This document shows, in pieces, positions 2,259 through 47,238 of a stretch of 51,969 bases of DNA. The notes beneath the pieces are model-generated. The model had not been told where the DNA came from. It was given only the letters and a program-made list of their open reading frames with translations, and did no database searches. A program made the translations under genes and the position numbers. Location: IMG/VR virus record IMGVR_UViG_3300027851_000037, positions 1 to 51,969 of that record; one strand, written 5' to 3'. Position 1 is the stretch's first letter. Each line of letters begins with the position of its first letter. The stretch comes from a virus.

Positions 2259-5200
2259 TTATCTGATTTTCTTTTCTAAAACATCTTCAACTTGCATATC
2301 TAGCAGAACAATGTCGTTTGATATGTCAACAGAGCCGCCTGCAACAAGCAGATAGTATCTGTATGAGAGTTTGCTTCTCTGCATACGCAGATTTGCAAGG
2401 TTTGAATCGGTTTGAACACCTGTAACAAGTTTCCATGTCACCAAATCGTTTGAGGCAAACAGATAGGCTCCAAATGGCCTTCCTGAAGGTCTTATCTCCC
2501 CCCGAAGAACAGCTCTTTCAATCTTTTTATATCCGAATTGATTCAGTTGGTTCGGCCTTGTCTGTATGTGAATCAGGTTTGAGCCTTCCATCTCCTCTTC
2601 TGAGAGGTCCACAATGTCTGCAGGCGAATCCTCAATTGAAGCAGCTCCCGCATCCCTTCCTCCGGTGAAGTTTGTTTTAACCATCATAATGTGTAGGGAA
2701 GGGGTTATTGCAATGGTTACATTGTTTTGTGCTGCCCCGGTTGCCTTGGTTGAGATGGTTAACAGGTTCATGTAGTTTGACACAGTAACTGTTGACACAG
2801 CATCAACAATTGCGGCTTTCAGTCTCTCGGTGATGCTAATGTAATCATCTGTTGATAGAATTGAAATCTGAGCGTTAATAGCGTTTATTGTCGCGGTGAT
2901 GCTCTGGCCTATTCCCTTTGCAGATATGGTCACAGACTGCGCGTAAGTTGTCAGGGTTGCTGTCTTTTCACTCGCTGTTGTAGTGTTTTTTAGAGCCAAC
3001 ACCTTGCCGGCATGCTCGGCCTTGCTCGAATAGATGTCAACAACCTTTGTGGAGTTGTTGTAATTCATTTTGATAAAAGGGATAACACTAAGCATCATCT
3101 CCAGGGCCATATATGTTGGCATAGCAACCTGAGTATGATATGAGGAGAGCCTTGAAGAGTCAACAATGAGTTGAAGCTGCTGCCCTGCCGGAATGACTGC
3201 ATCCATAGCGGTGAGTGAACACTTGTTTTGAGAAGCAAACTGCACCTCAGGAGAGACAACTATTGCCGGTATCTCAATTGTGGCTGTTGCCGGGAGAGCC
3301 GGTTGCAGCGTTGCTGTGGTTGGCCTGAGAGCATACCTGTTGTTACCTTCCTTAAAGATCTCGGTAATTTTATGCCACAGCTTTTCTCTGAGATTGAAAA
3401 CATAAGAATAGAGATAGTCTGTGTTCGAAACAATAATCTCCTCTTGAACAGAGTCAAAGAAAAGGTTTGCGCCCTGAATGTAATTGCGGAAATCAACCTT
3501 TGACAGGTAATCATAGATGTCGTACAGCGCAATGTTCTTTGTTGCCAAAGAGAATGAGTTGCAGAAGCGAATGGACTTGTCAATGTCTGCTTCCAATGCT
3601 TTTGATATACTTATTCCATTTCTTCCATACAGGAGGTTGACAGAATTATTTGCGATGTATGCAACTCCTGACTTTGTTTGCACAACTCCTCTTCTGCATG
3701 AGTCGTTTGAAATAGGGATAAGATTTGAATACAAGACTAATCCTGAACCCTGTTGTAGGGCATAAATACCTCTGTCCGTAAAAACAACCAAAGGATATTG
3801 CCCTTGCTGCGCCTCCGATACCTGTTCAACCATCAATGCAAGGTCTTGAATCTCTCCTCCAATTCTGTAAGAGTGTTCAACCGGGAAATGGTAAGGTGCG
3901 CCCGGTGAGGACACTAAAACAATCGTATTTTCTTCAATCTTTAGACTATCTGCAATTGTTGTTAAAGTATCAACCCTGTTGCATGTTGCAAAAGGAATCT
4001 CTGCTGATGTTTTAACATACGCAAAGGCAAAGTTGAGAGTCTTGGATGGATTTAAAACAATGGTCTTGGTGTATTTCTTTGATGTGGAAGAGTTGGTCCA
4101 CGAAAGAGTAACACTCTCCGCCCTGCTATCAGGAAAAGAAATAAAGTCCTGTAACCATATCTGTGCGCTCTCTCCATCTGCAGCATATTTGACAAGAGTT
4201 GTCACAAGCCCGGATGCTGACAATACTTTGTTTGAAGCGTTGATTGTGAACTGAGCTGTTGCTTGAACAATTTCTTGCCCGGCATCAGCAACACCTGTAA
4301 AATTCATCCGAGCAAAGATATTTGCCTCCTTGGTAAAGATTCTTTTATAGTCGTAGAGGTGTAGTCTGTTATTGAACAAAAACGCCCTCCCCGAACTCTT
4401 TAGCCATCCTGAGTTATCTACCGGCATGGTCTTTTCTGTTGCTTGATCTGCACCAAATTTGATAACATACTCCGCTTCAATGTTGTTCAAGGGAATAGAA
4501 TACTGCTTATAATACATTAATTTAGCAAAATCCTCTGCCTTATAGTCTTTCTCAGTCAGCCCAGGATGGTCTGTAATGTCGTATATTGGATAAGACAAGG
4601 TGTCGTTGTCAATTCCAAAGGCTCTTATTTTTTTTACATCAAGTTCATAGAAACTTTGTGGAAGTGTAGAGTAAATATTGATTGATTTAATAAGTCTTTT
4701 GTGTGATTCATAGTCAGGACATTGAACCAATGAGAGTTTTAACTTTTGCATAGACAGCAATGGGAGGCAGTTTGAAAAGAACAGTCCAAATGGCTTTGCC
4801 TTGAATGACCCAAGTTTTACCATGATTGGATTAGACATCTTCGTTTCATCCCCGGACATGAGGGAGTAGTTAACAGATACAAAAACATAACCCTCGTTAT
4901 AATCTTCGTTGTCGTGTTTGATTTTATTTAAAGAGCCGACAAGGGTTTCTCTGAATAATTGTTCACTAGCGTATGCCTCTGTCTTTGCTGAGAAGGCCTC
5001 CCCAACAATATCTGTTGCTATCCCGCCAATGAGATAATCTTCTTTTGTTACAGAGATAGTAGGTGAGACAGGTAACCCTTGAAACAAGACTCTATACGCA
5101 CCATCAACCCACTCATAAACAACCATTTTTTCAGCAACAATGTCGTTAATGATAAGCATATTGTTCAAAGAGTACAAATCAACATCCCCGGATGCTGCAT

Positions 5201-7707: not shown

Positions 7708-10700
7708 ATGGCAAACGAAGCAATCACTCCTATCAGCAACAGGGAGAAACTATACAACAACCTGATTGGAACAGGTAAAGTGTCGGAAGCAGAGATAGGC
7801 ACAAAGGATGATTTTGTTAACTCTGTTACCGATGTGGCCGGCGCAAAGCATCTCTACCAAAATCTTAAATCAAGATTCGACGAAGAGGAGATTGGTGACG
7901 AAGGTAAATTCTTAACCTTCATTACCCCTGATTTCTCAGGTCCTCTTCCTGCCGGCCAGGGAAATATTCCTCTTCCATCCAATCCGGCACAAGCTCCGGT
8001 ATTCACAAACCCTCTTGTTGTAGAAGATAAGGCCCCTGCTCCGCTAAAGAGTAAGGCTTCGGGACCAGACACTATGCAAGACACATCTCCTGCAGATGAA
8101 CAGCAACTATCTATTGACGCATTGCCTTTACCTGACAGAAAGAAGGAGCTTGATGCACAGGCACAGAAAATCCTTGAAGAGAACGAATGGTTGACAAGAT
8201 TTGAACAGATTGAAGGCCGGATAAAAGGTGTTGAGCAAGCAAAACCAACAGCCAAAGGGGAACTCTCTCCTACATCCCTGTTTTACCTGATGAACAAAGC
8301 CAAGGTCAACAAGGAGGATAGAGAGTTTTACGATACCCACCTTGATAAGGCCGAAGAAGCTCGCAGAAGGATGAATGCAGTCAAGATGCAAAAGGACTTC
8401 ATTCAGATTGCCGAAAATCTTGAATCATACGACCCCAAGGGTAGTAAAATAAAGCAGTTTTGGCAGGGTCTTGTCAACACAGGAACAATGAAGGATTTTG
8501 CGACAATGGGGATAACTCAGATTGAACGCGCCTTCAATATTGGCCATCTGCTTCGCAAGGCATCCGAAAATGAAGATCTGTTACTCCCGGAGGAGAAGCA
8601 AGCTGTTGACACATACAATAATCTTCGCAAGATAGAATCTGAGGACAGAGGTTTTTGGCATAAATCGGGGGCTATGTTTCAACAAATGGTTCCTTTTGTT
8701 GCTCAGATGATGCTGACTTCAGGCGCAACAAACGCAGTCAAGGCGGGGCTATGGGCTACCGGAAAAGCAGCAACATTCAAGGCTGCTAAAGAAATAGGAA
8801 AGAAAGAGGCTGTCAACTATGCTGTGCGTAAGGGAGGTCAGGAGGTTGTGGCAAACATGCTGCGCTCGCCTCTCACTACAACCATGTACACAAATCTTGC
8901 GGAGAGAAGATTGCAGAACTATTCTGAAAACGAAGAGGGCAAGGTTGTCCGTAATGATAACACTCTTGCCGGAGATGTTTACAAGGCTTATGTGACCAAT
9001 ACGCTTGAATACCTTACAGAGGGATTCGGAGAGTTAGCAGGAAGGGGCCTCTTGACCCCGTTCATCAACAATAAAAAACTTCTTGGGGTATTGGGTAAAC
9101 AGGCCAATATCCTCGACAAGATTACAGGCAACCCTGTCTATAAGAAGATGGGAGGGTTTCTTGATAAGGCTCAGGTTCACAACATTTCCTCAGAGATATT
9201 CCTTGAAGAGGTTCCAAACGCCCTGCTTTCATCTCTGCTCACAGGCTCTGATGATTATAAACAGCTTGCGGACCCTGAGTTCTATGGTTCAATAGCTCTA
9301 AATACAGCCCTCCTGGGAGGAACCTTTACAGGCATAAAGCTAGCATCGGGAGGAGTTGCCAACAACATTGAGAAAAACAGGATATCCAATCAGGCCAAGT
9401 CTTCTCTTTCAAACTTTGCTTCAAGCATAGCCACAATTGGGGACGAGAAGGTTCGTATAGCTGCCGAGAACCTACAAGCTTCCATACAAAATTCAGAATA
9501 CTTCAACCCTGATAATAAGTCCGAAGGGCCTGTTTTTGCAGCCATGCAGAATCTAAAGGAGGTCATTGGAACAGATAGTCAGTCGTATGAAGATGTTATT
9601 TCTGCGGCATCGAAAGCAGCAATGGATAATGCTGTTAAGACCGGGGCTTATCAGGGAATTGAAGCACTTGCCGAGAGCGAGATGGGAGGACCTGTCTTTC
9701 ATAAGAGAATACCGAATTCTGTTGTTATTGGAGTCAACAGAGAAGACAAGCAATTCTATATCACAGATACACTAGAGTCAGAACTTGACAAAGAACTGAT
9801 GGTTGTCAGAGATGTTGAGACCGGAGAGGTGTCAACAGTCACTTCAGGAGAGTTTGTTGATGTTCAAATGATAGATAAAAAGAGTTGGTTAGACTCTTGG
9901 TTGCAGTCGAGAGAGACATTGAAGCCTGTTCAAGATGCTGTAACCGCTGAAAATGCAGCAATGCAGCAAGTAGAGCAGCAGGAGATGGCCAACGAACAAC
10001 CAATCTCAATGGAGGAGATTGAACCTGGGAAGCAGTTTCGTATTGGTGAAGAGAAGGTAACTGTCATTGATGCCACCGAAGAGGACATTTTCGTTGTTGA
10101 CAAGGAGGGTAACGAGCACAGGGTTGAGCTGGGCGCACTTGAAAGAGTTCCTTCAATCACCCCGGCCACAGAACAGAGCATAGCTCCTGACCAGACAGGT
10201 TCTGTTGAGCAACCACAAGAGGTTGATGCGCCATTGACAAGCGAAATCAGCGCGGAAACTCCTGCCTCAGTAGAGACCCCTTCAACTGAAATCGTTTCTG
10301 AACAAATATCTTTTCCTGTTGATAAGGAAGGACAAATTGACTATGCACAGATAACAGAGCCAAAGATGTATGCTGAGGCCCTTAAATCTGAGTTTGGGGA
10401 AGAAGCGCCTGAGATGTTGGATGATTTGCTTGCTGAACAGAAAGAGGCTCTTAAAAAGGCTCAAAAAGCCACTAATCCCATTGAGCGCAGAAGGAAAGTA
10501 AAGGCTATCAACACAGAGATGGCAAAATTGAATGAGATTCGCGGGTTTATCATACCTCAGCAGTCTCAATCAGAGGCAGCAGAGGCCCCTATGTCTGCTC
10601 CAATGGTCCCACCGGTTACCAAGCAGCCCGGCAAGAGACCAAAGCTAACTCCTTTCCAACAGGAGTTGCAATCATTTGAGTCGCCTCAATCAAAAGAGGA

Positions 10701-13700
10701 GGCTGTTGCCTTCGCTCTTTTGGAGGGCGGATTGAGATTAAAGTTGAAAGATTCTCCCGGAACAAAGGGTTTTGCCAAACACTTAGGGTTGAAGGTCAAT
10801 AGTACAGACATGAGAAGGTATTTTGGCCTGCAGAACGAGAAAGTAGGACTAACACCTGAGAAATTTGCTCACTACCTGAAGGAGAACGACACATACAGCA
10901 TGTTTCAAAACATGGATGAGATGGAGGTTTTGGATGTTGTACTTGATGTGATGGGTAAGGTTTATTCAAAAAGAGCTGCCCTTGATTTCATAAAAGACAG
11001 CAGGGAGGGTGTTATTAAGGCCGAAAGCAATCTTGCTGAGAGACCAGACCTTACAAGCGAAGAAATAGACTACATAGTTGATGATTATTTTGCAGAAAAT
11101 TACTTATCTTTATCGCAGGAAGAGTCTTCTCTGATAGATAATGTTTTCATCTCTGCTGCACAGCAAGAGGAGTACGATAGGCTCCTGAATTCAGAAGATC
11201 TACCAGAGGACACAAACCAATTAAATACTTTACAAAATGACACCGGAAGAGATATTACAGCAGGAAATGACCGGGGAGAAATTCGTTCAGATGCTTCAGA
11301 AGGCATTGCCGAAAGCAATCAAGGCGAAGATGGTGTCTCGGGAGGAGTTGACACAGGCGACACAGGACGAGGACTTCAAGATGAAGCTAGTTCTGAGAAT
11401 CCTGACCTGGTACAGCAAAGAGGCGTAACAGGGGAGCAACCTGTTCAAGAATCAATACAATCTGTTGAACCGGAACTTTCTCCGGTTAAGAAGTCTGCAA
11501 TTGATAAAATCAATACTTCGTATGCAGACAAAATCAAAGAATTAGAATCGAAAAAGAAGGAAATCCTTTCTGCCAAGGAGCGTAAGTTCGCCTCTCTTGA
11601 CAAGAGAAATGGCCTATTTGGTGACACCAATCCTGAGTTTGACAATAACCCATTAGCAGGGGAGTTTGTGTATAACGAAGAGGTTGTTGCTGCTGCATTA
11701 AGACCATTCGATGAGCAGCTTGCTCAGATTGGCAAGGAGATTGAATCTGCAGAATCGAAAAGGGCTGCTGATATCGAAGATACCAAAAATCAAATCGACC
11801 TGTTTGAAGAAAACCTCGCAATCGAAGAGGCCAAGGTTGATGTTAATGCTTCCGATAAACAAAAGGAGGCCGGTAATTATCAGAAGGGGCATATTCAGGT
11901 GCAGGGATTTAATGTTTCCATAGAGAATCCAAGAGGTTCAACCCGCTCCGGCACAGACAGAGATGGCAAGAAATGGGAAATAACCATGAATAATACTTAT
12001 GGCTATATCCTTGGAACCACAGGCAAAGATGCCGACCATATTGATGTATTTCTAGGTGATAATCCTGTTGCAGAAAACATATTTGTTGTTGACCAGGTTA
12101 ATCCTGATGGCTTGTTTGATGAACATAAGGTTATGCTTGGATTTGATGATATCGAGTCTGCTAAAGCTGCATACCAATCAAACTACAAAGAGGGATGGCA
12201 AGGCCTTGGAAACATAACCGCTATTTCTGTTGAGGGATTCCGCGAATGGGCCGAAAATGGCACAAGAAGAATCAAACCATTTGCTGATTATAGGCAAGTG
12301 CAGTCAGAGCAAGCGACAACTGAAGAAGCTCCTGTTCAAGAGGCATCGCAACCTGAAGCATCTATTCAGGAGCAGCCATCATCAACACAAAAGATTGAGG
12401 ACTTTGGAGAGAAAATACTTGGCGCAAAAAAAGACTTGCGTGCCGGGTTGAAAGAACAGGCATCTCGCGAGATGAGCGATGTTCTTAAAGAGGGCTTTGC
12501 CAAGGTGTTTCCGCTTCAAGATTATGCAAAATTAGTTGAATTGGGAATTACTACACCTGAAGAGGCGGCGCTCTTGCAGTATATGAGGAGCAACATAGGC
12601 GCAAGGCCAAGCGGACGATATCCATCAAAAATAAACAAGTGGATGATGAGTGTTCGGGCGTATAAAGATGTTCTTGATTGGCTCAGCGATAAACAGTCAT
12701 TCGCAGATCAACACGATGGAATGTCGTTCATGGAATTAATGAGAACCCATCTCCATAAGCTAGCAGTAGAGGAGATTGACAACTACATTAAAACCTTGTT
12801 GGCCCTCGGATTTCCTGAGAGTAAGGTTAATCTTGGTAGCTATTCAATAAGGCGATTTATCGGGCGTAGTACATATACCATAGTCAACGGAAGCAGAATA
12901 ATCAATGACTATAAAACCTTTGATGAGGCTGTTGCCGGGCTGAAGTATATCATCAGCTCACTTCAGGAAAAACAAGCCGGGGTTAAGTTTGACATGTGGT
13001 ATATGAAAAACAACCCGAAGAACATTATCATTGGGAAAAAAGTTGCTGCCGGTAAATTTATTACTCTAAAGGATGGTTTTGCATCATCTAAAGAAGCATC
13101 AGAATACATTGAACAAAACAGGGAGCAACTTGAAAAGATGCTTGAAGAGGCAAAGATTGTTCCTCAGGAAAGGCCTGATGGTAATAAACCAAGAATTGGA
13201 TTTGATTACCGCAATGGTAAAGATGCCACACCTGAGATGTATCAAGAGGCCTTTGGGTTTAGAGGGGTCCAATTTGGAAATTATGTTGAGCAGAGTAAGA
13301 GGCAAGATGATTTGAATGAGGCCTATGATGCTCTGTTTGATTTGGCCAAAGTATTAAATATCCCTACAAAGGCCATCTCTCTCAACGGAGAGTTAGGCCT
13401 CGCGTTTGGTGCAAGGGGTAGTGGAGGAAAAGATGCCCCTCTTGCTCATTATGAGGCCGGTCAGGTTGTGATAAACCTTACTAAGAATAAAGGAGCCGGC
13501 TCTCTTGCTCACGAGTGGTTTCATGCACTTGACAATTACTTTGAGAGGATGAGAGGAAGGTCAAGTCAGATGATAACAGAAGGCTATGCAAGACCACAAA
13601 GGCAGGCTGATGGAGATGTTAACACCATTGTCAGGGACGAGGTTCTTGAAGCATTCAAAAATGTCGTTAAGTCAATTAATAACTCCGCTCTTAAAAGTCG

Positions 13701-16700
13701 TTCTGATAAGTTAGACGAAGCCCGAAGCAAACCATATTGGGGAACCATAGTTGAGATGGCAGCAAGGTCTTTTGAGTCTTATGTTTACCGAAAACTTGCT
13801 GAAGATGAGATAAGAAACGATTATTTAGTTGCCTTCAGAAAGATTGGCGAGTATATTAATCAGGCAGGAGCAAGCGAAGAAAAATATCCTTATCCAACCA
13901 ATGAGGAGGCGAAGACTATTGATGCCGCTTTTGAGGGTTTATTTCAGACGATCAAAACCAAGACCGAAGGTGACAATACTCTTTTATATCGCGAACAATA
14001 CTTCTATTCACCAACAGAACAGGCCCTGAATGTAATCAAACAGGAAAAAGGCACTCCAGAGCAATGGAAGGCCATGCTATTGAAAAATGGCGCAAAAGAG
14101 GCTGAAATGGATTGGATGGGATGGGAAGATTTTGTTGATGAGAAAAAATCTTTGACAAGGGCCGACATCCAAGAGTGGATTGACCTTAACAGGATTGAGG
14201 TGCAGGAGGTGGAGAAAGGTGTTAAAAATCTTGAATTTAAAACAAAGGATGTAAAAAGTGTTGAAAGAGACACTCGTCCTGAATTTGCTAATAATTGGTT
14301 TGTAAAAATTGGTAGAAACGACATTCAAGTAAGAGCAGAGAATGATGTGGAGGCAGTACAACTTGCTTTGCAAAAGGCAAACAAATTTAAAGAAAATTCT
14401 ACCAGATACTCACAATACCAACTCCCTGGCGGAGAGAACTACAAAGAGTTGTTATTGACAATGCCTGCTGTTGAAGAGTCTTGGAAAAACATTGACGATT
14501 TTAAACAGGCAATGCGTGACAAGTACGGAGAAGGATGGAAACCTAAGATGTCAAAAAAAGAAAGTAATGCTTTTGAATCTCTACTAAATGGAGAAACTAA
14601 ACGACCTCAACAGGTATTTGCATCATCCCACTTCTATGAGTCTAATATTCTTGCTCACATCCGCTTTAATGAGAGAATAACCCCATCAGGGGACAGGATT
14701 CTTTTTATTGAAGAGATTCAGTCTGATTGGGCGCAGCAAGGGAAGAAGAAGGGTTTTAATCCAAATGAAAAGGCCGCTAAAGCAAAACTTGAAAAAAGGA
14801 TTGCAAAAATTGATGCTGAATTATTAAGATTAACCGAGCAGGCGCAAAAGGAAGGACTTCGTGAAGGTGCATCCACAACAGAGTGGAGGGAGTTTGAAAA
14901 TGGAAACCAATTGACTCCTGAAATTTACAGATTAGAGCAGGCTATTATGACTGTTAGAAATAACAGGGAGTATGATTCAATAAACGCTGAGATTGAAGCC
15001 ATCAAAGAAAAACAACGGAAAATTGGAGCTGAAAAACTTGCGCTTATTAATGATCGTAAAGCTGCTGAATCAGAGTTGAGAGAATTAAACTTTGTTAATT
15101 CAAGTGGAGTTCCTGACATGCCTTTCAAGACCACCGACCAATGGGTAAACCTTGCACTCCGTAGGGCATTGATTTACGCTGCTGAGAATGGTTTTGACAG
15201 GGTTGCCTGGACTAATGGCGAGATGCAGGCCAAGCGTTATGACTTGAGCAAGTACATTGATAGTGTAAAATATAAGAAAAACCAAGACGATACCTATGGA
15301 GTTTATGTTTTCGCTAATGATGGAAGTCATCCTTTAGATAACGACTCTATGACAATTTCCGAGGTAGAAAACACCTTGGGGAAAGAGATTGCTCAAAAAA
15401 TATCTGATGGAGAAGGTTCGGAAAGTGGTCCATTCTTGGTTTTGTGGCCTAAAGATATGAAGTTTGGAGGCGAAGGCATGAAGGCTTTCTATGACAACAT
15501 TATTCCTGCTCAGGTTAACAAGATTGGTAAAAAATTTGGAGCCAAGGTCGAGACAACTAGCATCCCTGTAATTGACAAAGAGGTTTATGACCATGATACC
15601 GAAGAGGTAACCCTTACCCCGGAAGCAGAGGAGATGTACCAAAAATTTATGGACTCTGTTGCGGAAGAGGATGGCTCTTACTCTGTTGAGCAGTTTGTCG
15701 CCGACATGAAAAGTGTGGGCTATGAAGTTCAGATTAAAGAAGATGGTGAGCCAAACAACATAAAGAAGATTTACAATGGCGAAACATATTCGGTTCAGTC
15801 TATTCCTATCACTCCTGCAATAAGAGAACAGGCTGCAATAGGGATGCCTTTGTTTAAGGAAAACAAACCTTTTGCCGAGAGGTCAGTAAGCGAACTAGCC
15901 AATGAAGCGCAGGAGTTTGCGAAGAGTCTTGGGGTGAAAGTGAATATTCTAGCTGATTCGTCTGAATTCCCTTCGTTAAGTCCTCAGAGAAAAGCAAGAG
16001 GATGGTATAGCCCTGTCAGAGATGAGATAACCATTATCCTTGCTAACCACGAAAGCATGAAGGACCTTCAGGCAACGATTCTTCACGAAGCAGTTGGCCA
16101 CAAGGGATTGAGGTATATCCTTGGGGATAGTTTTAACTCCACTATGGAAAAAGTTTTTGATTCTCTTCCAAGAGAGACAAGGGCTGACTATTATGCACGA
16201 TACGCTAAGAAGGTCCTTGCAGCCGAAGAGTACATGTCAAATCTAGCTGAAGAGAGCATCGAGCCTTCGCTCTGGGAGAAGATAAAAGGCTTCATCAGAG
16301 ATGCCTTCCGTTCAATAGGCGTTAATCTTATTCTTACAGATTCAGACCTTGCATATATGCTTTGGAGGTCAAAGAATCGCCTGCAGAACATTGAAACAGC
16401 CACTTCTGCTGAGGTGATGAGGGATATCTCCTTTGCCGAATTTGCAAAAGCAAGAATCAAGGGATGGGGAGAGGTTCTATTCCGTAGCAAAGACTCAAAT
16501 GGAGACCTGTTTGTACTCGATACAAACAGCATTACCCTAACCAAGGGGGAGAAGTTTATTGAGGCCATGCAAGACAGAATGATTTCAGGTTCCAAACTCA
16601 TAGCCGAGGTCAAAAAGAGAGGCGGAAAAGTAGGAACATTTTCAAACTTCGTTTCAGAAGAGACAAGATCTTCATCAAGGGCAAAAGCTGAGTTAGATGA

Positions 16701-19641
16701 TTTCGAAGATAATTATTTCAAACCCCTCCTTTCATTTGTAGAGAAGTGGGTAAAAGCCGGTAAGAGCCTAAAAGAGATTGAACTCTACATGATGGCCAAG
16801 CATGCTCCTGAAAGGAACCGATTCATTGTTAAAAGACAAGCGAGAGAGACAATCCTCACTAATTATGAATACGACCTCAAAAGAGCAGAAAACAAACGAA
16901 AGAAAGCCACCACAGAGGCCGTAATTGAGGGAATAGATAAGACTATTGAGAACATTCAGGCACAAATTAACTTCATAAAAAATGAGGAAAATGCTTCATT
17001 GGTAAGTAGTCTTGTTGAGAACGCCTATGATGTGGCGTTCTTTGGAGAGGGCAAAATGGCCATCCCGGATTATCTCGACACATTTAGTTACTTACTTGCC
17101 CTGAATTATCAAAAGAAGGTTATTTCATCTCTTGAAAATACTTACAGGTCCGAGGAGGGGAATAACCGCTCCGGAATGACAGACGAAAATGCCAACTCTA
17201 TTGTTGATGAGTTTGAAAAGAGCATAGGTGACACAGCCGAGATTTCCAAATTTTGGAAAGCAGTCAATAAAGCAACTCATTTCTCACTTGAAAAGAGCCG
17301 TAAATATGGCCTAATCAGTACCGATGTTTACAATGCAACGAAAGGAATTTATAATTATTATGTTCCGCTTCGCTCATGGGCTGAGAAGGAGAATATTGAC
17401 TATCAGGATGTATTTGGAGAGAATTATCTTGGAAAAGAGATTTTAAACTCAGTTAACAAGCATTCTAAAGGCCGAACTTCACTTGCAGACAATCCCCTTG
17501 GGTTTATTGCTTCTATGGCTGAGTCGTCAGTTGTTGCAGGCAGCAAGAACGAGGTTAGAAAGAACGCATGGAGGCTAATCAAGAATAACTCTGATATGAA
17601 CGACCTATTCCTGATAAAACAGGCATGGGAGGTGAATATTGCTGACCAGGGAGATGAACCTATGTGGGAGGTGACTTTTGAGCCGCCAACACAAGAGATG
17701 CTTGACCTTGGATTAGCCAGAGCGCTTCCTCCAAATGATGCCTATAATTGGCATAAATCAAGAGGAGAGTTAGACATGCACCAGGTTCCGGTATTTATTG
17801 ATGGAAACAGGGTGTTGATGGAATTCAAGGGTCCTATTGGGGTTCGTGTAGCGGCAGCTATCAATGGGGAAAATGTTGTAAGATGGAAAAATACTGATGG
17901 CATTGCCCGGTTTACGAGGATAATGGCAGCTCTCAAAACATCAAAAAACCCAGACTTTATGCTTACCAACTTTATCAGAGACTTTTTCTTTGGTAACATG
18001 GCCTATGCAAATCGTGGAGGAAACCCTTTAAAACTGACTAAAAACCTCAACAGAGCATGGATAGCTATCCATAAAGACTTCACCAAGGGGAAAGAGGATT
18101 CATACCTGAAGAGTATGTATGAAGATTTCAAGATGAATGGCGGAGAGACCGGATATGTTCACATGTTAGGCGAGCAGAACTATAAAAAGAAGATTGAGAA
18201 AATGGTTAAGGAGGCTAATCAGGCTTCTAAAATCAGCCCTACTGTCTTTGCAAAGAAAACCTTCAAAGTTTTAAATCATGGTCTGGATTACTTGGCCCAT
18301 ATGTCTGAAAATGCAATGAGGTTTGCAACATATCTGACAGAAGTTGAGAGCCTAATGGAAGGCGAGGGCGCGACCAAGCCAACTGAAGCCATGAAGAAAC
18401 AGGCGGCTCTTGCAGCAAAGGATGTGACAACTAACTTCAACCGCAAGGGTAAATGGAGCTCACAGATAAATTCATTCTACGCCTTCTTCAATGCTTCTGT
18501 TCAAGGTTCAGCAAACTACATAAAACTAGCAAAGGAGAACCCTGCAAGGTTCATTACCGCAAACCTTGCTTTGATGTCAATACGGACACTTCTTACTGCA
18601 TGGTGTCTGTCTTTGATTGGAGGCGATGATGATGATTCGTATGAGGCATTATCTGATTACATCAAGGAGAACAACTTTGTCATTCCTGATGGAGGGGGAA
18701 AATTTATCACCATCCCTCTTCCACATGGATCTAGAGCGCTCACTAATTTTGGGCCGCTTGCATTAGAGGTCATGGCCGGCAAAAAAGATATTGGCAAAGC
18801 TCTTGACACATATACCAAAAATATGATTTCAGAACTCTCTCCAATCAACCTTGTCGGACTTGATAAGAGCGCATTCATCCCAAGGAACGCAGGAGAGGCA
18901 TTGTTGACCGCTCTTCCAACAGCTATAAGACCATTTGCGGAGACTGCTCTTAACTTGGATTTTATGGGAAGGAGCATTGAGCGAAAGAACTTCATTGTTA
19001 CGGGTGATGGCTATGTTCCAAGATTTATGAACGCTTATGCCAACACTAACCCTATACTCATTGGAATGTCAAGGCAAATAAATAAGTGGTGGGGAGGCAA
19101 TGATAGCCGGAGCGCAGCAGTTCAGGTGAGCGATAATGGTGATGTAAGCCGCTCTGTGGTAGGAGAGTTATTTGATATCAGCCCTGCCTATACAGAACAT
19201 ATCCTCGAAGGTTATTTTGGAGGACTTGGAAGATTTGTCAATGACCTATACAAGACAGGGCGAAGCATCGTAAAGGGCGAAACACCGGAGATGCAAAATA
19301 TACCTGTGTTCCGCAGACTCTACCAAGAGCCATACGAAAACAAAGCATGGCAGAGTTATTTCGAGACAAGGACCCGCGTAAACGATATCGAAAGAGCCAT
19401 CAAGTCTGCTAAGGATGAAAAACTTACAGAAGAGTATGTAAAACTCAATAATTATTATAACATATCCTTGATTTCTACATTCGGGACCTACAATGATATA
19501 ATTAAAAAAATATCTGAGAATATTAAGACTCTTCCTTCAAGCGATCCACGAAGGAAGCAAGCTGAGAAATCAATGGACGATTTGGTTGAGAGAATGCACG
19601 AAGAGATTAAGGCAATAGATAAACTACATAATAAGAAATAA
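7708..19641 (+). CDS. Giant 3977-aa polyvalent protein, probably ejected with DNA
   Basis: This is the largest gene by far, about 23% of the window. Segments that read like known polyvalent-protein domains, in order: an inorganic-pyrophosphatase-like domain (about 1391-1531, GHIQVQG...DADHIDVFLG...DEHKVMLGFD); an LPD1-like domain (about 1841-1945, FGFRGVQFGN...LNGELGLAFGARG) ending in AHEWFHALDNYF; a module QYQLPGGENYKELLL...FIEEIQSDWAQQGKKKGF (about 2235-2360) paired with DQWVNLALRRALIYAAENGF (about 2475-2580); a second zincin-like site LHEAVGHKGLRYI (about 2792-2802); and an LPD38-like C-terminal domain (about 3560-3650, NFNRKGKW...FFNASVQG). Such proteins (Iyer and co-workers) are proposed to enter the host with phage DNA and modify host targets. 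The N-terminal ~600 residues contain hydrophobic patches that could aid membrane passage. Domain limits are by eye. Confidence 0.85.
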   Translation: MANEAITPISNREKLYNNLIGTGKVSEAEIGTKDDFVNSVTDVAGAKHLYQNLKSRFDEEEIGDEGKFLTFITPDFSGPLPAGQGNIPLPSNPAQAPVFTNPLVVEDKAPAPLKSKASGPDTMQDTSPADEQQLSIDALPLPDRKKELDAQAQKILEENEWLTRFEQIEGRIKGVEQAKPTAKGELSPTSLFYLMNKAKVNKEDREFYDTHLDKAEEARRRMNAVKMQKDFIQIAENLESYDPKGSKIKQFWQGLVNTGTMKDFATMGITQIERAFNIGHLLRKASENEDLLLPEEKQAVDTYNNLRKIESEDRGFWHKSGAMFQQMVPFVAQMMLTSGATNAVKAGLWATGKAATFKAAKEIGKKEAVNYAVRKGGQEVVANMLRSPLTTTMYTNLAERRLQNYSENEEGKVVRNDNTLAGDVYKAYVTNTLEYLTEGFGELAGRGLLTPFINNKKLLGVLGKQANILDKITGNPVYKKMGGFLDKAQVHNISSEIFLEEVPNALLSSLLTGSDDYKQLADPEFYGSIALNTALLGGTFTGIKLASGGVANNIEKNRISNQAKSSLSNFASSIATIGDEKVRIAAENLQASIQNSEYFNPDNKSEGPVFAAMQNLKEVIGTDSQSYEDVISAASKAAMDNAVKTGAYQGIEALAESEMGGPVFHKRIPNSVVIGVNREDKQFYITDTLESELDKELMVVRDVETGEVSTVTSGEFVDVQMIDKKSWLDSWLQSRETLKPVQDAVTAENAAMQQVEQQEMANEQPISMEEIEPGKQFRIGEEKVTVIDATEEDIFVVDKEGNEHRVELGALERVPSITPATEQSIAPDQTGSVEQPQEVDAPLTSEISAETPASVETPSTEIVSEQISFPVDKEGQIDYAQITEPKMYAEALKSEFGEEAPEMLDDLLAEQKEALKKAQKATNPIERRRKVKAINTEMAKLNEIRGFIIPQQSQSEAAEAPMSAPMVPPVTKQPGKRPKLTPFQQELQSFESPQSKEEAVAFALLEGGLRLKLKDSPGTKGFAKHLGLKVNSTDMRRYFGLQNEKVGLTPEKFAHYLKENDTYSMFQNMDEMEVLDVVLDVMGKVYSKRAALDFIKDSREGVIKAESNLAERPDLTSEEIDYIVDDYFAENYLSLSQEESSLIDNVFISAAQQEEYDRLLNSEDLPEDTNQLNTLQNDTGRDITAGNDRGEIRSDASEGIAESNQGEDGVSGGVDTGDTGRGLQDEASSENPDLVQQRGVTGEQPVQESIQSVEPELSPVKKSAIDKINTSYADKIKELESKKKEILSAKERKFASLDKRNGLFGDTNPEFDNNPLAGEFVYNEEVVAAALRPFDEQLAQIGKEIESAESKRAADIEDTKNQIDLFEENLAIEEAKVDVNASDKQKEAGNYQKGHIQVQGFNVSIENPRGSTRSGTDRDGKKWEITMNNTYGYILGTTGKDADHIDVFLGDNPVAENIFVVDQVNPDGLFDEHKVMLGFDDIESAKAAYQSNYKEGWQGLGNITAISVEGFREWAENGTRRIKPFADYRQVQSEQATTEEAPVQEASQPEASIQEQPSSTQKIEDFGEKILGAKKDLRAGLKEQASREMSDVLKEGFAKVFPLQDYAKLVELGITTPEEAALLQYMRSNIGARPSGRYPSKINKWMMSVRAYKDVLDWLSDKQSFADQHDGMSFMELMRTHLHKLAVEEIDNYIKTLLALGFPESKVNLGSYSIRRFIGRSTYTIVNGSRIINDYKTFDEAVAGLKYIISSLQEKQAGVKFDMWYMKNNPKNIIIGKKVAAGKFITLKDGFASSKEASEYIEQNREQLEKMLEEAKIVPQERPDGNKPRIGFDYRNGKDATPEMYQEAFGFRGVQFGNYVEQSKRQDDLNEAYDALFDLAKVLNIPTKAISLNGELGLAFGARGSGGKDAPLAHYEAGQVVINLTKNKGAGSLAHEWFHALDNYFERMRGRSSQMITEGYARPQRQADGDVNTIVRDEVLEAFKNVVKSINNSALKSRSDKLDEARSKPYWGTIVEMAARSFESYVYRKLAEDEIRNDYLVAFRKIGEYINQAGASEEKYPYPTNEEAKTIDAAFEGLFQTIKTKTEGDNTLLYREQYFYSPTEQALNVIKQEKGTPEQWKAMLLKNGAKEAEMDWMGWEDFVDEKKSLTRADIQEWIDLNRIEVQEVEKGVKNLEFKTKDVKSVERDTRPEFANNWFVKIGRNDIQVRAENDVEAVQLALQKANKFKENSTRYSQYQLPGGENYKELLLTMPAVEESWKNIDDFKQAMRDKYGEGWKPKMSKKESNAFESLLNGETKRPQQVFASSHFYESNILAHIRFNERITPSGDRILFIEEIQSDWAQQGKKKGFNPNEKAAKAKLEKRIAKIDAELLRLTEQAQKEGLREGASTTEWREFENGNQLTPEIYRLEQAIMTVRNNREYDSINAEIEAIKEKQRKIGAEKLALINDRKAAESELRELNFVNSSGVPDMPFKTTDQWVNLALRRALIYAAENGFDRVAWTNGEMQAKRYDLSKYIDSVKYKKNQDDTYGVYVFANDGSHPLDNDSMTISEVENTLGKEIAQKISDGEGSESGPFLVLWPKDMKFGGEGMKAFYDNIIPAQVNKIGKKFGAKVETTSIPVIDKEVYDHDTEEVTLTPEAEEMYQKFMDSVAEEDGSYSVEQFVADMKSVGYEVQIKEDGEPNNIKKIYNGETYSVQSIPITPAIREQAAIGMPLFKENKPFAERSVSELANEAQEFAKSLGVKVNILADSSEFPSLSPQRKARGWYSPVRDEITIILANHESMKDLQATILHEAVGHKGLRYILGDSFNSTMEKVFDSLPRETRADYYARYAKKVLAAEEYMSNLAEESIEPSLWEKIKGFIRDAFRSIGVNLILTDSDLAYMLWRSKNRLQNIETATSAEVMRDISFAEFAKARIKGWGEVLFRSKDSNGDLFVLDTNSITLTKGEKFIEAMQDRMISGSKLIAEVKKRGGKVGTFSNFVSEETRSSSRAKAELDDFEDNYFKPLLSFVEKWVKAGKSLKEIELYMMAKHAPERNRFIVKRQARETILTNYEYDLKRAENKRKKATTEAVIEGIDKTIENIQAQINFIKNEENASLVSSLVENAYDVAFFGEGKMAIPDYLDTFSYLLALNYQKKVISSLENTYRSEEGNNRSGMTDENANSIVDEFEKSIGDTAEISKFWKAVNKATHFSLEKSRKYGLISTDVYNATKGIYNYYVPLRSWAEKENIDYQDVFGENYLGKEILNSVNKHSKGRTSLADNPLGFIASMAESSVVAGSKNEVRKNAWRLIKNNSDMNDLFLIKQAWEVNIADQGDEPMWEVTFEPPTQEMLDLGLARALPPNDAYNWHKSRGELDMHQVPVFIDGNRVLMEFKGPIGVRVAAAINGENVVRWKNTDGIARFTRIMAALKTSKNPDFMLTNFIRDFFFGNMAYANRGGNPLKLTKNLNRAWIAIHKDFTKGKEDSYLKSMYEDFKMNGGETGYVHMLGEQNYKKKIEKMVKEANQASKISPTVFAKKTFKVLNHGLDYLAHMSENAMRFATYLTEVESLMEGEGATKPTEAMKKQAALAAKDVTTNFNRKGKWSSQINSFYAFFNASVQGSANYIKLAKENPARFITANLALMSIRTLLTAWCLSLIGGDDDDSYEALSDYIKENNFVIPDGGGKFITIPLPHGSRALTNFGPLALEVMAGKKDIGKALDTYTKNMISELSPINLVGLDKSAFIPRNAGEALLTALPTAIRPFAETALNLDFMGRSIERKNFIVTGDGYVPRFMNAYANTNPILIGMSRQINKWWGGNDSRSAAVQVSDNGDVSRSVVGELFDISPAYTEHILEGYFGGLGRFVNDLYKTGRSIVKGETPEMQNIPVFRRLYQEPYENKAWQSYFETRTRVNDIERAIKSAKDEKLTEEYVKLNNYYNISLISTFGTYNDIIKKISENIKTLPSSDPRRKQAEKSMDDLVERMHEEIKAIDKLHNKK

Positions 19642-44824: not shown

Positions 44825-46549
44825 TTACCTCTCTACTTTTTCAAGTTTATACTCATATAATTGTTCGGCCAGAGCTGCACATAAAGCCCTCGACATGTTC
44901 ACCTCAACCGCATTGCCGATATACTTTTTCTGTTCTGCTTGTGTGCCGAGTAGTTTGTAAGTCTTTGGAAAGCCCATAATCTGTTTCAGTTCGGGTATCT
45001 TCAACATTCTCATTTTGATGTCAATGATTCCGTACAGAGCCATGAACTCCTTGATTCTTATCATTGCCGGAGAGTCTGTCTCAAAAATGATGATGATTGC
45101 TTCTCCCTGTTCAGTCGCAACTAAATAAGGAGGCATTTTATCCATTCTGGCAATTAGGGTGAAGCAAGGCTTTTCCACATCTCCGCCTGAAGAGTTAAAT
45201 TGAGGATTCATCAGATAATGCCACTTCCTGTTCGCTGTAATCACTTGTGAAGGCTCGTCAACAGATGCCCCAACATTGTTAAAGTTGGTGTTCATTATCC
45301 AAGGTTTCAGGGTTACAAGGTTATGCTTTGGACTTGTGGTAACAGTACCGGCCGGAGTATCTATTGGGGCAGGGCTGCCATTTCCGTACTGCATATCAAG
45401 AAACTGAGGCGTAGCAAGTGCAAACCTGTCAACTGTTGTAACAGTAGGGCAGGGGTTGTCAATGCTTGAAACATTGTCTCCATTGCCATAATATGCAGAT
45501 AGAAAACTCGGTGAAACAAGTGCATGGTTGTCTTTGCACTTAATTGTGTGTGCAGGACCTTCGATTCCGATATTTTTGCTATCAGGATGGCCGGAGTAGT
45601 ATTTTGAAAGGAATTGAGCTGACACAATCCCCAACCTGCCTTGGCATGAAATAACAGGTGAAGGCTCTTCAAGACTTGGAGGGATATGCTTACCGGTTTT
45701 TCCGTTGGTGGAATTATATTTCATAATCCACTTATCTTTTCCGCCTGCAACAAACTTTATCAGCCCTGCATGGATTCTCTCCAGAGTCTTTTCAGAAAGA
45801 GGTTTTTTCCGAGTGAATATTGACTCCCCTTCATCTTTGAGGTCAAGGACATCCTTAACTGCTTTCCATCTTTCTAAACGACCAAAAAGACCTCCTCCGG
45901 TCACTGATTTTGCATGAGTGGGTTCTGGCCATGATATAGGCAGACCTTTCTTTGCAAATTGTCCGAAGTATCTCTTTCTTGCTGTATAGGCTCCATAGTC
46001 AGCAGAGTTGCAAATCTTCCAATCGTAGTTATATCCATATTTGCAGATATTTTTCACCCAACGGAGATAACTCCTGCCACGATCCATTGAGATAGGCTTT
46101 CCGTTCTCGTCCACATCACCCCAACTCATAAACTCTTCCACATTCTCAATGTGAATGAAATCAGGGTTTATTTCGTCAATGTATCTAAACAGGTGTTCTG
46201 CAAGTGTCCTAGAGTCTGCATCCCTGGACTGACCGCCTTTGGCTTTGCTGAAGTTTGTGCATTCCAAACTGGCCCATAGTACCACAAGAGCTTCGGGATA
46301 TTTCGCCCTCATTGCGTTCAGATGGGTAATCATAGGGGAGAGTTCAAGAGTGCGGATATCCTCTGTAAAGTGGAGCGTTTCGGGGTGATTCTCGGAGTGA
46401 GAAAGAATTGCGTTAATGTCGTGATTGACACAAGCAACAACCCTTGCACACTTCTGGCCGTTTAACTGTGCGAATTCAACACCTGTGCTCGTTCCGCCTG
46501 CACCGGAGAATAAATCTATGTAGAGTAGTTGTATGTTTTCTTGGTTCAT
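44825..46549 (-). CDS. Cytosine-C5 DNA methyltransferase with repeat-containing target domain
   Basis: Start is ATG 46549 (MNQENIQ), one base after the stop of the intact form of the upstream gene; an earlier in-frame ATG at 46585 overlaps it. The 574-aa enzyme has motif I DLFSGAGGTSTG (12-23), a catalytic Cys (C97) in LECTNFSKAKGG where classical enzymes have PCQ, ENV (135-137), a motif VIII-like RKRYFG (191-196), and C-terminal IGNAV near 545. Between VIII and X, about residues 290-440 hold several copies of a ~38-residue unit with 'SPSFLSAYYGNGD', 'TPQFLDMQYGNGS' and 'NPQFNSSGGDV'. It likely modifies phage DNA to block host restriction. Confidence 0.88.
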   Translation of the reverse strand: MNQENIQLLYIDLFSGAGGTSTGVEFAQLNGQKCARVVACVNHDINAILSHSENHPETLHFTEDIRTLELSPMITHLNAMRAKYPEALVVLWASLECTNFSKAKGGQSRDADSRTLAEHLFRYIDEINPDFIHIENVEEFMSWGDVDENGKPISMDRGRSYLRWVKNICKYGYNYDWKICNSADYGAYTARKRYFGQFAKKGLPISWPEPTHAKSVTGGGLFGRLERWKAVKDVLDLKDEGESIFTRKKPLSEKTLERIHAGLIKFVAGGKDKWIMKYNSTNGKTGKHIPPSLEEPSPVISCQGRLGIVSAQFLSKYYSGHPDSKNIGIEGPAHTIKCKDNHALVSPSFLSAYYGNGDNVSSIDNPCPTVTTVDRFALATPQFLDMQYGNGSPAPIDTPAGTVTTSPKHNLVTLKPWIMNTNFNNVGASVDEPSQVITANRKWHYLMNPQFNSSGGDVEKPCFTLIARMDKMPPYLVATEQGEAIIIIFETDSPAMIRIKEFMALYGIIDIKMRMLKIPELKQIMGFPKTYKLLGTQAEQKKYIGNAVEVNMSRALCAALAEQLYEYKLEKVER

Positions 46550-46550
46550 T

Positions 46551-47238
46551 TTAAAATATCCTTTTTTGTTGTGCGTGTTGTTCAAATCTCTTTACAGAGT
46601 CTTTAAAGTATTTTTCATCTTTCTCAAACCCCATGAATGGGGCTCCGGCCTTGTGTGCTGCTATTCTGCTTGAGCCACTTCCAAGATGGGTGTCTAAAAT
46701 ACCCCCCCCCTATGAAGTATTTGGATATCAGCCACTCATAGAGTTTTACGGGCTTTTGATGCGGATGAACTTTGTCGCCTTGCTCGCAAGTAGCAAACCC
46801 ATTCCAAGATAAAGTGACCTTAATCAGAGGATATTTTGTGATATTTGTCCATGCAATCTCACCTGCAGAACCATGCTGCAATTCAGCATCTTTTAACTTA
46901 TCCCAGAATATGATATTATTGGATGGAGTCAAGTAGTTCCAATAATAATTTGCACCCCAAATAATTTGATTTTGCGTAGCTCTGAATAGTTCCTCGAAAT
47001 AAGCCTCGGTAGGAATTGAATTGTTAAAATCGTTCCTATGCTTATAGAATTTTGCATGTTTGTCTTTTGTCCAATTCTGTCCAATTCCATACGGAGGATC
47101 TACAATAGCAAGCCCGAAGTATTTTTCAGGAATTTGCTTAAGCCCTTCCATGCAATCCATGAGATACACAACCGATACAATTCCTGTTTCAGAAATGAAT
47201 TCGTGCTTTGCCTGATATCCGGTGATTAGGTTGGTCAT
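46551..47238 (-). pseudogene. Amino-methyltransferase (beta class) interrupted by a G-tract frameshift
   Basis: The first frame (46624-47238) starts at 47238, overlapping the previous stop as ATGA. It has the catalytic DPPYGIG at residues 47-53, HGSAGEIAW and HPHQKPVKLYEW, the order of a beta-class N6-adenine or N4-cytosine enzyme. At a run of nine G (46702-46710) it leaves frame and gives a nonsense tail. The expected SAM-binding end, ILDTHLGSGSSRIAAHKAG then GFEKDEKYF, is present one frame away and ends at 46551. One fewer G (eight) would restore a 228-aa enzyme. This may be a real loss, an assembly error or phase variation. Confidence 0.75.
46702..46710 (-). repeat. G9 homopolymer at the methyltransferase frameshift
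   Basis: Nine C on the plus strand, read as nine G in the gene. It encodes part of the FIGGG loop just ahead of the SAM-binding motif. Slipped-strand change by one base would switch the gene between full-length and truncated forms. Confidence 0.8.

Follow-up and report, generated by a model that had tools for sequence, protein, structure and literature searches.

Known phase-variable methyltransferases and phage genes

Slipped-strand mispairing in poly-G tracts is an established cause of phase variation in bacteria. One example is a type III m6A methyltransferase gene of Helicobacter pylori, which carries a G9 tract and is phase-variable (PMC12003011). Among phages, those of Campylobacter have receptor-binding proteins for which poly-G phase variation has been shown (Sorensen et al., 2021, Cell Rep, as summarized in PMC11868660 and PMC10877375), and in the Bacteroides fragilis group orphan phage methyltransferases and their gene flow are treated in part of a further study (PMC10333322). 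In the open-licence literature, we found no report of a phage methyltransferase switched by poly-G.

The locus described here lies in a stretch of 51,969 nucleotides, hereafter the window, which is an IMG/VR virus record (IMGVR_UViG_3300027851_000037). It encodes a P22-type portal and an integrase-like protein and is therefore probably a tailed temperate phage, with Bacteroidota as the probable host group. A 3977-aa protein encoded at 7708-19641 on the plus strand gives phrogs matches to DarB-like antirestriction and also to virion or endolysin proteins, and the antirestriction match agrees with this phage being exposed to restriction. No restriction enzyme was recognised among the annotated window proteins, which represent a subset of the ORFs.

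A methyltransferase gene divided by nine G

The original prediction held that two halves of one methyltransferase lie in different frames with the break exactly at a run of nine G, and reading of the minus strand confirmed this arrangement. The features of the locus are as follows.

46702..46710, minus strand: G9 tract (C9 on the plus strand) at which slippage is proposed, lying between motifs X and I
46711..47238, minus strand: upstream part of the methyltransferase with start ATG at 47238, motif IV DPPY and motif X region HPHQKP, assigned on a basis that includes homologues
46624..46701, minus strand: tail translated out of frame in the assembly (OFF state), stop at 46624-46626
46551..46701, minus strand: downstream part of the methyltransferase in the ON frame, from motif I ILDTHLGSGSS to the stop at 46551-46553
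44825..46549, minus strand: C5-cytosine methyltransferase gene (PF00145; phrog_116), 60% identical to a gene in phage contig L009
47235..47867, minus strand: ORF of unknown function (phrog_874) that precedes the methyltransferase and shares ATGA with its start

As assembled, the ORF runs on the minus strand from 47238 to 46624 and encodes 204 aa (M...VDPPYGIG...HPHQKPVKLYEWLISKYFI-GGG-YFRHPSW..., then stop). This product is the OFF form, from which the SAM-binding motif is absent, and motif I of the same enzyme, ILDTHLGSGSSRIAAHKAG..., follows directly 3′ of the G9 in a different frame. With eight G, as had also been predicted, the gene encodes 228 aa and its stop (46551-46553) is separated by one base from the ATG (46549) of the C5-methyltransferase; because of this spacing, translational coupling of the C5-methyltransferase to the ON-state stop would be possible. 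The frame is also restored by G5 (227 aa), G11 (229 aa) and G14 (230 aa), while G6, G7, G9, G10, G12 and G13 are OFF lengths, and the length of the repeat in this ORF toggles full-length and truncated products as at a contingency locus. Neither half carries a further stop or frameshift. No other run of G or C in the 52-kb window exceeds six, and a first-order Markov model predicts about 0.1 such runs with a length of at least nine.

Enzyme class and predicted structure

Against Pfam N6_N4_Mtase (PF01555; cut-off 26.7 bits) the G8 form scores 41.8 bits and the OFF protein 9.7 bits. The motifs of the window enzyme occur in the order IV (DPPY), X (HPxQKP) and I (DTHLGSGS), which is the order of the beta class, and the gene is predicted from its sequence to encode a beta-class amino DNA methyltransferase acting on N6-adenine or N4-cytosine.

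An AlphaFold2 model was built of a tract-bearing relative in the ON state (L078) instead of the window protein, with a mean pLDDT of 74 and poor confidence at residues 29-73. Here the three glycines encoded by the tract lie in the loop that joins the helix of motif X (161-171) to the strand of motif I (177-179). The best solved-structure matches of the model are M.BceJIV, CcrM and M.MboIIA, and the match to M.BceJIV (E=1.3e-7, TM 0.60) identifies a beta-class fold in this relative, not in the window protein itself. From this model, a length-tolerant glycine loop could carry in-frame poly-G without cost, and OFF products would lose the SAM-binding motif.

Tract length and selection among relatives

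The nearest relative (L053) is a contig binned into Bacteroidetes bacterium 41-46, whose enzyme is 81% identical in amino acids to that of the window; nine more of its ORFs are homologous to window ORFs, and L053 therefore comes from a phage related to that of the window. Here too the gene is OFF, at G11, with ON expected at 9 or 12 by our reading of the flanks. Between the downstream halves of the two genes there are 25 differences, 15 of them at codon position 3 (dN 0.09, dS 0.85). OFF/OFF pairs of other lineages also reveal purifying selection on both halves, with dS near saturation in several, and such selection on the halves of OFF alleles speaks against old pseudogenes. Among 298 genomes related to that of L053, there were six distant homologues.

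A closer pair is formed by contigs L027 and L028, which are 99.75% identical over 812 nt and carry G11 (OFF) and G13 (ON), respectively. Tract length and frame thus differ among close relatives both in this pair and among the window, L053 and L078, though not within the window's own species, for which the viral contigs searched gave no match spanning the tract. Near-identical contigs of different metagenome records have the same tract length at G8-G9, which counts against random assembly error and suggests from sequence comparison that G9 may switch slowly.

Most relatives of the window type are tract-free, with a sequence like AKEGDxILDTHLG at this position. Intact relatives were found both with and without the tract, contrary to the absence of intact forms among relatives that the original prediction had named as evidence against itself. 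A family tree of 37 rows requires at least six changes of tract label, four of them forced by supported branches, so that the tract has been gained or lost repeatedly. Two relatives that carry the tract in the ON state have the spacing of the window's G8 form, L078 reading YFVGGGVIDTHLG and L012 YYTGGGILDTHLG. The spacing between motifs X and I is one residue longer, equal to the window's G11, in the ON form of L053 and in tract-free L002, the sister to the window and L053 together. Because the two spacings disagree, the ancestral tract length is undecided, and the suggestion that G8 is the ancestral state did not find support.

The same site in other lineages

A scan of 2.9 million viral contigs yielded 7 contigs with G≥8 immediately preceding LDTHLG and 33 with G≥9 immediately preceding LDPFxGSG, with GC contents of 0.25-0.70. 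Extra tract-bearing loci came from genome contigs and family searches, and lineages were defined as clusters at 90% nucleotide identity, the window included. In total, same-site poly-G of 8-13 was found in 36 non-redundant methyltransferase lineages (15 in frame, 20 out of frame and one mixed), all of which have an upstream half that extends into the region of motif X and a motif I 3′ of the tract. Phage methyltransferases of this kind had been expected to be uncommon, which was not borne out given this recurrence. The tract-bearing sequences come nearly all from metagenomic assemblies, as contigs that the IMG/VR classification assigns to viruses, and the cultured or named phages examined all lack poly-G between motifs X and I.

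Of the 32 lineages with G≥9, 20 are OFF (about 60%, the mixed one excluded), a share compatible with the two thirds expected from free slippage (p=0.71) and incompatible with a 10% error rate (p=7e-13); since the search patterns admit all three frames, they do not bias this share. The three G8 lineages are all ON. These same-site tracts in both frames lend support to the idea of a phase-variable gene, as do the L027/L028 pair and the OFF sister L053, which has another length and both halves conserved.

One match, L051 (Anaerolineae), was dropped as a chance match to the search pattern. Another (L052, match 3071-3102) lies in a bacterial contig of 228 kb from a Spirochaetales MAG (CALXKL010000003.1) and carries a same-site G9, out of frame.

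The controls point to site specificity. A9 at the same distance gave no loci, although this control is weak alone since lysine is unusual there. G9 just before DPPY gave two loci, one of them (L102) rejected as not a methyltransferase and the other (L103) a methyltransferase, also out of frame. In the latter the G9 (L103:10599-10607) splits the methyltransferase-like gene just before LFDPPY. Across the 33 contigs selected for the tract (322 kb), G or C is repeated nine times or more at 40 places, about seven of them in addition to those selected, and A or T nowhere reaches nine in a row.

Further poly-G tracts in phage modification genes

Poly-G also occurs in other genes of phage modification cassettes. 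Six poly-G tracts of 8-9 lie in one phage contig, L009 (at 2211, 2703, 6009, 7251, 7905 and 8202), and likewise in L014; they fall in two methyltransferases that are in frame, in a small gene that precedes the C5-methyltransferase, and in a PAPS-reductase-like gene, where one tract is out of frame. A small conserved gene with G9 is in frame in L009 (2703-2711) and L014 and out of frame in L049 (3449-3457).

In the LoVEphage group, a PAPS-reductase-like gene is split by poly-G just after the SGGKDS motif and is out of frame in six of six records, nine being the in-frame length: the tract is G10 in four Bacteroides LoVEphage records (L054:1976-1985, L055, L063, L065) and G8 in two induced isolates (L056:1978-1985, L064). 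A C9 run (L054:3170-3178, also in L055) splits a LoVEphage methyltransferase, which in the LoVEphage relative BI-TP1 (isolate L056) is intact and has no run at this position.

A switch, a broken gene or an error?

The best explanation of the locus, and one that we regard as likely, is a phase-variable switch in which the poly-G tract sets the activity of a phage beta-class methyltransferase. A recently broken gene would be the result of a slip in a run of G-rich codons that inactivated the methyltransferase, leaving a pseudogene with no switching function. The OFF state shared by the window and its sister L053 fits such a history, as does the seeming stability of G9 lengths across near-identical contigs; however, the two OFF alleles differ in length with both halves conserved, neither half has a second stop or frameshift, and the same site is affected in many lineages, so that we consider a pseudogene unlikely. 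Homopolymers are error-prone in some technologies, and the phage gene could really be intact, e.g., with G8. Yet near-identical contigs of different metagenome records share their lengths at G8-G9, the OFF share of about 60% at G≥9 is far above any plausible consensus error, and the tract would be unusual even at G8, which makes an assembly or base-calling error quite improbable.

Homopolymer runs can trigger transcriptional slippage, and RNA polymerase or ribosomes might slip on the tract in a programmed or constitutive manner, giving some full-length enzyme at any tract length. The PAPS-reductase-like gene of the LoVEphage group, out of frame in all six records at G8 or G10, would be odd if never expressed and speaks for this view. 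A programmed signal should nevertheless keep one length, whereas DNA lengths and frames vary even among near-identical relatives, and we give this explanation the smallest chance of all.

Under the phase-variable switch, Gs would be gained or lost in the window phage by slipped-strand mispairing when its DNA is replicated, either as a lysogen or in the lytic cycle. One length in three would join the DPPY/motif X half to the motif I half (ON) and with the other two the enzyme would end short of motif I (OFF), the genome as assembled being one OFF member of the population. The benefit is likely bet-hedging: ON virions would resist ordinary restriction at the methylated site, and OFF virions would escape methyl-dependent (type IV-like) restriction or incur a lower cost. 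The tract could also switch the methylation of the host in lysogens.

Judging from these sequences, slippage probably turns DNA methylation on and off in many phages. With slightly more confidence than doubt, we further propose that many unrelated phage lineages have repeatedly evolved poly-G in the X-I loop of an orphan methyltransferase, producing mixed ON and OFF virions, and that some Bacteroidales phages carry several switches per DNA-modification cassette (L009/L014), making combinatorial modification states possible per genotype. If true, escape from restriction would be a heritable, bet-hedged phage trait that is not set by the last host alone, and some seemingly broken methyltransferases in phage annotations would be explained. 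Host-range tests and phage preparations would be affected, and prophages would confer methylation that switches on their hosts. With a convergent site, the tract can be surveyed in existing reads.

Comparison with known systems

The solved beta-class enzymes M.BceJIV, CcrM, M.MboIIA and M1.HpyAVI have the motif order IV-X-I and the fold in common with the ON relative L078, at 13-17% identity in structural alignments. With the orphan methyltransferases of the B. fragilis group, the likeness is that they are prophage-borne and exchanged between phages, and the part of that study concerned with them deals with gene flow and not with tract-based switching (PMC10333322). The phasevarions of bacteria such as H. 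pylori are alike in having poly-G within a methyltransferase ORF, the length of which decides between a truncated product and fused halves (PMC12003011). These are, however, host genes, often with a cognate restriction enzyme, whereas in the window the gene belongs to a phage, no restriction partner was seen close to it, and the tract lies at the X-I loop of a small beta-class enzyme. The Campylobacter phages, as their system is summarized in the citing papers, likewise have a phage gene switched by a hypermutable poly-G tract; there it is a receptor-binding protein gene and was shown experimentally, whereas here it is a DNA methyltransferase gene of other phages, proposed from sequence.
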